The notes under the pieces are model-generated. The model saw only the letters and a program-made list of their open reading frames with translations, searched no databases and had not been told where the DNA came from. Position numbers and translations under genes: made by a program. This document shows positions 18,140 to 21,093 of a stretch of DNA of 58,534 nt, piece after piece. Source of the DNA: Verrucomicrobiota bacterium (GTDB taxonomy: Bacteria > Verrucomicrobiota > Verrucomicrobiia > Opitutales > Puniceicoccaceae); contig JBCDMB010000022.1 of assembly GCA_038744685.1 (NCBI GenBank), forward strand, positions 1 through 58,534. Direction: 5' to 3'. The stretch's first letter is position 1; each line of letters opens with the position of its first letter.

Positions 18140-19363
18140 ATGCCCACTTTCCAATACACCGCGCGTGACTCCCGCGGAAAGGCAACAGGCGGAGAGATCG
18201 ACGCGGCAGATCGGGTGCAAGCTACCCGTCGTTTGAGAGGGATTGGTCTTCGCCCTACAGGAATTAGTGAGAAGGCGTTAAAGAAGTCGAAGAGTTCACC
18301 CAAAAGGCGTAGCTCTTCACGCAGCATCAGGGATTCGGATGTGGACGCACTTCTCAAGATGCTTCTTGGCCTTGTGAAGGGGGGAATGGCCATCGGGGAC
18401 GCCGTGCGCAATCTCAGGGATCGAGCCAGCTCGCCGGTGCTTCGCGATCTTGCTTCAAGAGTGTGGGCGCGCCTTAGCGATGGATCGACTCTTGGGCAGG
18501 CATTGAAGGATGCAGCCCCTGGGCGAAACCGCGAAACGATGAACACGGTAATCGAGATCGGAGAGCAGACCGGAAATTTGCCACCGATTTTGGAAGAGCT
18601 CTTAGAGCAGCGGGACGAGAGCAGGGCAGTCCGGAGAAAATTGATCGGTAGTCTTCTTTATCCGACTTTTCTCTTCGGTATGGCTCTTGCCGTAGCGGCT
18701 TTCCTCCTGTTTTTTCTCATGCCTCGGGTTCAATCTACTGTGGAGGGGTTGGGCTCAGGATTATCTCCTTTTGCCGCGTTTCTGATCGGTGCTTCGAATT
18801 TGCTTCTCCTTGCAGCGCCGATTTTAGCTGGCATTGCCCTGGTTGCTCTCATCGTTTCTGCGATCATGCATCGTACACCGGAAGGTAGGTATCGCTTTGA
18901 TCGGTTCCTTCTGAAAGTGCCTGTTGTTGGTGCGATTGTGAAGGATGCGGAAGTATACCGGCTTTGTAGTATATTGGCGTTACTTCTCGGAAGCGGTATC
19001 CACGCGTCCCAAGCATTTTCCCTAACCCGTCAAGCGATCCGTAATCTTGAGCTTCGAAAACGCTTCGAGGAAGTCCGCAGTCTTGTGAATGAGGGGGCAT
19101 CCGTGGCTGTCTCGCTCCAGCAGCATGGTCTGTTGGATCCCACTGCATCAGACTTGTTGAAGGTGGGCGAAGAGACCGGAGAGCTTTCACATGGTTTCGA
19201 TGGACTGCGGGCCGACTACCGAGAATCTCTGGGTGACCGGCTGCGGAATCTCACCGTGATCGTCTCTGGCGGCGCGATTGGAGGAGCCTTTCTTTTCGTT
19301 ACCATGGTGGCACTTGCAGTGGTTACATCGATCTTCCAAGTGGGTAACTCGATTGGGCTTTAA
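18140..19363 (+). CDS. gspF: Type II secretion inner-membrane platform protein GspF
   Basis: 407 aa, standard length. The N-terminus MPTFQYTARDSRGKATGGEI is characteristic. Two GspF repeats follow with three membrane helices (about 170-195, 215-240 and 375-400), and EIGEQTGNLPPILEEL and VGEETGELSHGFD are the paired conserved motifs. It is the platform that transmits ATPase work to the pseudopilus. It lies 6 bp after gspE. Its TAA stop (19361-19363) is the left copy of the target duplication of the miniature element that follows, suggesting the stop once overlapped the ATG of the lipase gene. Confidence 0.95.
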   Translation: MPTFQYTARDSRGKATGGEIDAADRVQATRRLRGIGLRPTGISEKALKKSKSSPKRRSSSRSIRDSDVDALLKMLLGLVKGGMAIGDAVRNLRDRASSPVLRDLASRVWARLSDGSTLGQALKDAAPGRNRETMNTVIEIGEQTGNLPPILEELLEQRDESRAVRRKLIGSLLYPTFLFGMALAVAAFLLFFLMPRVQSTVEGLGSGLSPFAAFLIGASNLLLLAAPILAGIALVALIVSAIMHRTPEGRYRFDRFLLKVPVVGAIVKDAEVYRLCSILALLLGSGIHASQAFSLTRQAIRNLELRKRFEEVRSLVNEGASVAVSLQQHGLLDPTASDLLKVGEETGELSHGFDGLRADYRESLGDRLRNLTVIVSGGAIGGAFLFVTMVALAVVTSIFQVGNSIGL

Positions 19364-19642
19364 TACCAAATTTAAGAATGATTGACAGATATGGTGCAGC
19401 TCGGAATCGAAGCAGCGCAAGGCGCGGGGATCGGATGCCTATCGAGATACGCGTCGATCCCTTCAACGCCGCGAACTTCGATTCCGGGCGCATCCTTTCA
19501 GGACGGGCGTGGGATGAGCCTGAGCAGTCCCGCGGACGCGGGACCCGATTGGCACGGGTCGCAGACCCGCCTCCAATCGGGCCGCCTCACTCAGACTCAT
19601 CTCCCATCCCGCCATAACTATCAATCATTCTTAAATTTGGTA
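19364..19642. mobile_element. 279-bp miniature inverted-repeat element (MITE-like) with two internal hairpins
   Basis: Perfect 22-bp terminal inverted repeats lie at 19364-19385 (starting TACCAAATTTAAG) and 19621-19642, extending imperfectly about nine bases inward (ATGG at 19391-19394 against CCAT at 19612-19615). The element is flanked by TAA on both sides (19361-19363 and 19643-19645), a probable 3-bp target duplication. Inside are two adjacent long hairpins. One has arms 19403-19412/19476-19485 and an inner pair 19427-19433/19455-19461. The other has arms 19544-19552/19573-19581 plus imperfect outer pairing from about 19502 to 19613. There is no coding capacity. The 3-bp duplication is compatible with an IS5-like source, but no transposase gene is in the window. 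Confidence 0.85.
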
Positions 19643-19644
19643 TA

Positions 19645-21093
19645 ATGCGTTCTTTACCGAAGCTGGGTTTCCTACTTCTCGCTCTAGTCCTCCTTGGAGG
19701 GTGCAAGACTGCTGTAAAGGCACCAGATATCCCTGAAATCTACCGCTTGCCGGCTCGCTATGAAGGCGTGGATCGAAACCCGGTAATCGTGGTTCCGGGA
19801 ATCATGGGCTCGATCCTGGAACAAGAGGGCACGGGAGTTCCAGTCTGGGGTGCATTTTCAGGAGAATTTGTTGATCCGGAGACGCCTTATGGAGCTGCCC
19901 TTGCTGCTCTTCCAATGGCTAAAGGAGTACCCTTGTCAGACCTACAGGATGACGTTGTTTCGACTGGGGCACTGGACCGACTCAGATTTGATCTTTTTGG
20001 TCTTCCCATCGAACTCTCTGCCTACGCCAACATTATGCGAACTCTCGGAGTGGGCGGGTATGCTGATGAAGATCTAGGGCGTGCAGGGGAGATTGACTAC
20101 GGAGACCGTCACTACACTTGTTTTCAGTTTCATTACGATTGGCGCAGGTCAAACGTCGAAAATGCTGCGCTTCTCGACGCTTTCATCCAAGATAAGGCAG
20201 AATACGTCAGGCAGCAACGGAGGGAACGTTTTGGCGAGACAGATGAACCTGTCCGTTTCGACATTGTTGCCCATTCAATGGGTGGTTTAATCACGCGGTA
20301 TTACCTGCGATACGGTGCAGAGCAGCTTCCCTCGAATGGAAGCCTTCCTGAGATTACCTGGGAGGGAGCCAAACACGTGGAAAAAGCAATTCTGGTTGGC
20401 ACACCGAACGGTGGCTCAACTGACTCGATTCATCGCCTAGTAGATGGATTGGACCTCAGTATCCTTGCGCAATATGACCCGGTAATCATTGGTACTTTTC
20501 CTTCTCTCTATGAGTTGATGCCAAGGGGAAGACAGCAGGTTCTTCAGGTCGATGGGGTGCCGACTGAATGGCTGGAACCAACGGATCCATCGGTCTGGTT
20601 TCGATTCGGATGGGGACTGGCGGCAGATGGTAAAGAAGCAGAGTTAGCGAGAATCCTCCCCAACGTTCCAGTGGACCAACTCAAAGAAATCGCCCGTGAT
20701 CACCTTGAGAAGTGTCTTCAGAACGCCCAGCAGTTCCATGAGGCGATTGATCGACCGGCCAGTCCTCCGCCCGGAACGGTGATTGAATTGTTCGCCGCTG
20801 ACTCTGAACCCACGCCATCGCTTGTTCTTGTCGATCCGGCGACCTACGAGATTCGTCAGACTCAATTGAGACCCGGTGACCGGACCGTTTTGCGAACGAG
20901 TGCTCTCATGGATGAGAGAGTTGGGCAGAAGTGGGTTCCACGGCTTCGATCTCCAATTCAATGGAACGCAGTGACCTTCATTTTCTCGGATCACCTAGGG
21001 ATGACACGCGATCCGGTCTTTACGGACAATATTCTCTACCGGCTCCTCGAAGCTCCGAGACCGACTCAAAGGGAGACACGAAATGGTTTGTAG
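19645..21093 (+). CDS. LCAT/PGAP1-like alpha/beta hydrolase, lipoprotein
   Basis: 482 aa. The N-terminus ends in a lipobox (LVLLGGC, Cys20), so the protein is probably lipid-anchored in the envelope. The core shows the lecithin:cholesterol acyltransferase-like opening PVIVVPGIMGS and the nucleophile elbow AHSMGGL with Ser211. Late Asp and His residues (SDHLGM near 452) could complete the triad. It should be a lipase, esterase or acyltransferase acting on lipids; the substrate is unknown. The ATG lies 2 bp beyond the miniature element, so no native ribosome site remains. Removing the element gives TAATG, i.e. a stop/start overlap with gspF. It overlaps the next gene by 11 bp. Confidence 0.85.
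   Translation: MRSLPKLGFLLLALVLLGGCKTAVKAPDIPEIYRLPARYEGVDRNPVIVVPGIMGSILEQEGTGVPVWGAFSGEFVDPETPYGAALAALPMAKGVPLSDLQDDVVSTGALDRLRFDLFGLPIELSAYANIMRTLGVGGYADEDLGRAGEIDYGDRHYTCFQFHYDWRRSNVENAALLDAFIQDKAEYVRQQRRERFGETDEPVRFDIVAHSMGGLITRYYLRYGAEQLPSNGSLPEITWEGAKHVEKAILVGTPNGGSTDSIHRLVDGLDLSILAQYDPVIIGTFPSLYELMPRGRQQVLQVDGVPTEWLEPTDPSVWFRFGWGLAADGKEAELARILPNVPVDQLKEIARDHLEKCLQNAQQFHEAIDRPASPPPGTVIELFAADSEPTPSLVLVDPATYEIRQTQLRPGDRTVLRTSALMDERVGQKWVPRLRSPIQWNAVTFIFSDHLGMTRDPVFTDNILYRLLEAPRPTQRETRNGL

Follow-up and report, generated by a model that had tools for sequence, protein, structure and literature searches.

A MITE at a gspF-lipase stop/start overlap belongs to a structured group with a retained core and changing ends

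The element at the gspF-lipase junction

The window analyzed here, a 58,534-nucleotide stretch from a Verrucomicrobiota bacterium of the Puniceicoccaceae (GCA_038744685.1, contig JBCDMB010000022.1), contains a type II secretion operon in which a small element separates gspF from a lipase gene. For the gspF product, TIGR02120 was the top NCBIfam match, yet it scored under the family cut-off. The features of the junction are listed below; R1 and R2 are covariance models described in a later section.

18140-19363, + strand: gspF, type II secretion inner-membrane protein F (T2SSF, PF00482, E = 2e-36)
19361-19363, no strand: left TAA copy of the target site duplication, which is also the gspF stop codon
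19364-19642, no strand: MITE, 279 bp, of the L001-L003 subfamily, with about 10 bp extra in arm 2
19364-19385, + strand: left terminal inverted repeat, TACCAAATTTAAGAATGATTGA
19392-19614, + strand: whole core (200 bits with model R1, 165 bits with model R2)
19395-19492, + strand: core arm 1, a variable stem-loop enclosed by a bulged motif
19415-19424 and 19464-19473: bulged motif of arm 1, 5' part GCGCAAGGCG and 3' part CAACGCCGCG
19493-19503, + strand: small linker hairpin, ATCC..GGA, joining the arms
19504-19611, + strand: core arm 2, with the arm 1 motif inverted; 3' part CGCCTCACTC at 19583-19592
19621-19642, - strand: right terminal inverted repeat
19643-19645, no strand: right TAA copy, whose final A begins the lipase ATG
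19645-21093, + strand: LCAT-like lipase with a lipoprotein-type N-terminus (LGGC) (PF02450, E = 3e-9, and sequence)

The original prediction, made from the letters of the window, had described a 279-bp element with perfect 22-bp inverted ends, two strong hairpins and a TAA on either side, and each of these points was confirmed. The ends, TACCAAATTTAAGAATGATTGA and TCAATCATTCTTAAATTTGGTA, match exactly, the 32-bp arms at the ends of the element are 94% complementary, and positions 19361-19645 hold precisely the element and both TAA copies. Deletion of the element together with one TAA leaves TAATG, as had been stated. The sequence folds far below its shuffles (z = -12 and -13 for the two strands) into a long end-stem that bears the two arms and the small linker hairpin. 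In the window copy, the GCGTT side of the arm 2 motif is lost and an extra hairpin, GTCCCGCGGACGCGGGAC, is found instead.

The other junctions of the operon overlap or nearly do so, again as predicted: three overlap by 4 nt (13260/13263, 13829/13832, and 16418/16421), 21083/21093 overlaps by 11 nt, and 18133/18140 are 6 nt apart. Neither protein was damaged by the insertion, since the gspF stop codon and the lipase ATG are both kept and both genes are intact. Judging from the 279 bp of strong hairpins that now lie between the two genes, their translational coupling has probably been lost, and it is plausible that the insertion also removed the ribosome-binding context of the lipase gene. Consensus scans detected neither an intrinsic terminator nor a sigma-70 promoter in the element. 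The right end and the TAA target together form TGGTATAAT (19638-19646), a perfect extended -10 that ends on the lipase start codon; transcription from it would start inside the lipase gene, and a consensus scan detected no -35. The lipase, a lipoprotein encoded within a type II secretion operon, is possibly a lineage-specific substrate of that system. A search of 102 further genomes from the order did not recover its gene; because no relative searched has the gene, no empty TAATG site was recovered.

A mobile family that duplicates TWA

A search of the organism's own genome for further copies of the ends, which the original prediction had proposed, showed that the element is multicopy, with about 10 near-complete copies, several of them truncated by contig ends. 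This repetition within the genome excludes chance as the origin of the element. The sister species carries 21 full-length copies that are 77-83% identical, together with short deletion derivatives of 106-254 bp that retain the same ends and the TTA duplication. No DNA-level copies were found in a third species of the genus, in another genus of the family, or in about 370 further genomes from the order, all the genomes compared being drafts, and a search of a plasmid collection gave no match. Most copies are placed between genes, as predicted around them by a simple codon-usage scorer.

The trinucleotides flanking 36 copies were TTA/TTA in 16, TAA/TAA in 13, and imperfect in 7; thus, 29 of the 36 show an exact 3-bp TWA duplication, and the insertions occur in both orientations. 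TWA stands on both flanks of 30 copies, and the two flanks match in 29 of these (P = 3e-8 versus independent flanks), which excludes a merely symmetrical target. A 2-bp duplication (TA) next to an odd additional base was considered and ruled out, because the choice between TAA and TTA is independent of element orientation. Since the flanks match and the base at W is unrelated to the orientation of the copy, the duplication comprises 3 bp and has the sequence TWA. A coding function was also rejected: the 87-aa frame of the window copy is interrupted by stop codons in each of the 11 other copies checked, so the reading frame is not kept and there is no conserved coding capacity.

The element thus has the features that define a MITE, namely terminal inverted repeats, a length below about 500 bp, multiple copies, a target site duplication and no conserved ORF. 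We conclude that a non-autonomous MITE inserted at TAA and duplicated it, and that the family has multiplied in the genus. The proposal of a miniature mobile element that duplicated TAA on insertion therefore stands. Its description as a recent arrival finds no support in the nearest copy, which is only 95% identical.

Insertion precisely at a stop codon is what a preference for TWA leads one to expect. The duplication falls on a predicted stop codon in 5 of the 36 copies (three TAA on the + strand and two TTA on the - strand), and among the TWA sites of the window that lie at least partly outside coding sequence, 17 of 170 (10%) are stop codons, so there is no enrichment of stop codons among the insertions. 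Because the element duplicates TAA, it regenerates the stop codon by construction, and here the ATG of the next gene is left as well. The exactness of the junction, though neat, is therefore ordinary. The operon shows how a TAA-targeting element can enter where a stop and a start codon overlap and leave both proteins whole.

A candidate mobilizer

Within the genus, a single element combines related ends with a gene: a 1,135-bp element of the IS630 family in the sister species (NF033545, E = 2e-59). Its ends, TACCTCATAATAAAAGGTTTGA and TACCTAATCTAAAAAGGTTTGA, are identical to the MITE ends at 18 of 22 positions on one side and 15 of 22 on the other, and TTA lies on its left flank, the side that is readable. 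A transposase 67% identical to this one occurs in an Opitutales MAG, in an element whose ends read TACC../..GGTT and which is flanked by TTA on either side. The organism's own genome gave no match to the sister-species transposase, and no autonomous element with the ends of either of its two MITE families (A, that of the window, and B, described below) was found there, only MITE ends.

IS630 elements usually duplicate TA, not 3 bp. The TA duplication of the IS630 type was not found here, where the duplication is 3-bp TWA. TWA is also a habit of IS5/PIF types, and for these two reasons we regard the IS630-family transposase of the sister species as the likely, not proven, mobilizer. If instead an IS5/PIF-Harbinger-type transposase moved the element, the 3-bp duplication would be accounted for directly, such elements duplicating TWA or TNA (PMC2213677 gives a 3-bp duplication as typical of PIF/Harbinger), and the lack of an IS630 transposase in the own genome would cause no difficulty. 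We nonetheless consider this assignment unlikely, because the only full element of the genus with TACC ends encodes an IS630 transposase and has TTA on its readable side, and a second IS630 relative likewise combines TACC with TTA.

A folded core under exchanged ends

When the copies of the genus were aligned, 97% of the cells in 101 base pairs were paired, and 30 pairs had changed on both sides. The own genome also holds a second MITE family with ends TACCACTTCGAAAAAATTCTGG and TWA duplications, which has the same core with its stems replaced yet complementary. Its copies lie at C16:38686-38952 and C32:12291-12557 of the own genome (G000) and at the ends of C1, C13, and C47; four copies end at contig breaks, so these repeats probably broke the assembly. 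A third variant of the core is present in the sister species.

We then looked for the core with covariance models, whose E-values are rough. Model R1 matched in 19 of 132 relatives, with many full-length matches (E down to 1e-24) where blastn gave little or nothing. Because the core is pseudo-palindromic, matches fall on both strands. Most of the cores inspected lie within inverted ends of about 20-34 bp, including TACCACTTTTCACTAAG, TAGAACCTATCTCAAA, TAGGCAGTGTCTGG, AGAGGGCGTCTAAAAAGT, TAGAGCACTTTTCATCTA, and others, and the ends of 15 lineages have a mean identity of 35% past the first three bases. Around the cores of L135, L136, L145, and L172, inverted ends are poor or undetectable.

For model R2, 23 divergent cores were aligned on sequence alone. 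In this alignment, the paired fraction of cells was 89%, compared with 38-43% in controls that had been slid; both sides had changed in 47 of 61 pairs, which remained paired, and the covariation score was 0.58, against 0.17 in shuffles. Of 387 genomes from the phylum, 24 gave R2 matches to the core, other classes included, and some of these matches are single-arm; the 363 genomes without a match argue for its specificity. Thus, elements whose ends are unrelated share a two-armed core with covarying stems and a fixed motif, both across the order and in some further families of the phylum, and the window element is a member of a phylum-wide group of structured MITEs in which the core is retained and the ends change. 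The original prediction had treated the hairpins as incidental cargo, a view overturned by the covariance models and the motif, which show that, across the phylum, no other part of the element is as well conserved.

The most constant feature is the bulged motif, GCAAGGCG-hairpin-CAACGCCGC, which is present once per arm in opposite orientations and is nearly invariant. The invariant or near-invariant positions of arm 1 read 5' GCGCAAGGC-G .. C-AAC-GCC-GCG 3', and those of arm 2 read the same in inverted orientation, while the stem sequence is free. In cores outside the model, GC(A/T/C)AGGCG and AACGCC are present in nearly every arm 1 and in most second arms.

Simpler forms were also seen. Four single-arm elements of 114-125 nt that carry the motif (L173, L174, L176, and L178, in G576, G516, G505, and G406) have other inverted flanks and come from more distant families of the phylum; they could represent a simpler ancestor. 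The matches in a pattern scan of IMG/VR were mostly due to chance, with two real single-arm cores, both with the bulged motif and on contigs classed as viral (L248:11831-11952 and L263:2307-2401). A TAGAACCTGTTTAC-like sequence lies near the core in L263.

Origin and maintenance of the core

Taking these observations together, we judge it probable that the element is a MITE inserted at TAA, with a conserved two-armed core, mobilized by an IS630-type enzyme, and with ends that have been exchanged. According to this explanation, an IS630-family DDE transposase like that of the sister species would act on the TACC ends and insert the element at TWA. The paired ends and arms would form a branched hairpin, either as single-stranded DNA at the replication fork or as RNA if transcribed. 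The core would be kept since its motif or fold helps the element to persist, for example by being bound by a host or transposition factor, and the ends would be exchanged to match whichever transposase is present. The missing empty site, the own genome without a candidate transposase, the 3-bp duplication where IS630 elements usually make one of TA, the rough covariance E-values with matches on both strands, and the cores without clear ends count against this explanation.

Its main competitor takes the element for an ordinary MITE with an unselected interior, in which the core is inherited baggage and the arms are matched by template-switch correction. Covariation in palindromic DNA can indeed also arise by such correction without selection. 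MITEs are commonly palindromic (PMC2229807), and in our data end repeats and stems vary in concert even among copies of one genome, as an unselected interior would predict. However, stems and ends have diverged almost fully between lineages, whereas the partly unpaired motif is nearly invariant and holds in cores outside the model as well. Arm correction explains matching arms but not the preservation of a specific, partly unpaired sequence, and for this reason we infer that the motif or the fold is under selection and give the unselected interior a minor share of the probability. If the element were instead a structured RNA gene, or a regulator acting in cis on the gspF-lipase operon, and were kept for a role at this site, the strong fold and the covariation would be accounted for, but this is very improbable given the copies at unrelated loci, the target duplications, the insertions in both orientations, the lack of any Rfam covariance-model match up to E = 5, and the lack of the lipase gene here in every relative searched.

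Returning to the selected core, we tentatively suggest a wider reading, which we find somewhat less convincing than its opposite: a phylum-wide mobile class may be defined by the folded core rather than by the ends. It would consist of two inverted copies (sometimes one) of GCAAGGCG-stem-CAACGCCGC, read by a putative factor, and would repeatedly gain new terminal repeats and so change its transposase.

Comparison with known elements and significance

Several known repeats resemble the element in part. RUP of Streptococcus pneumoniae, a 107-bp MITE of IS630-Spn1 that inserts at TA, is likewise a small intergenic non-coding element with inverted ends in common with an IS630-family IS (PMC2229807), whereas the window element has 279 bp, duplicates 3 bp (TWA), and contains a conserved two-arm core that occurs under many different ends. 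ERIC and Correia (NEMIS) are structured MITEs that also lie between co-transcribed genes, and they are known to affect mRNA stability; they differ in sequence and size, and a core kept under changing ends is not described for them (PMC2229807). In CIR of Caulobacter and Brucella, a linker joins two arms and the fold is kept across genera (PMC2229807). Unlike the window element, CIR has no inverted ends and exposes GANTC; in our group, this sequence is not conserved, occurring as GAATC/GATTC in family A and missing from most other lineages. REPIN and GTAG repeats share the conserved hairpin motif in an inverted pair, but the group described here has DDE-style inverted ends and a target duplication, and in the invariant columns of alignment A5 neither a GTAG nor a CGTC tag stands at the base of the hairpin. 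GTAG repeats are abundant in Opitutus terrae (PMC3733652). In the open-access subset of the literature on Verrucomicrobia MITEs, no report describes such an element, and the family is absent from both this literature and Rfam.

A fold that recurs in distantly related bacteria inside completely different ends is unusual. By the usual definition, a MITE has ends that match a transposase and an interior that is disposable. Across this phylum the pattern is reversed: the ends turn over, and the structured core with its fixed bulged motif persists. The motif and the covariance model provide a concrete means to find out whether such interiors are bound or used, and by what.
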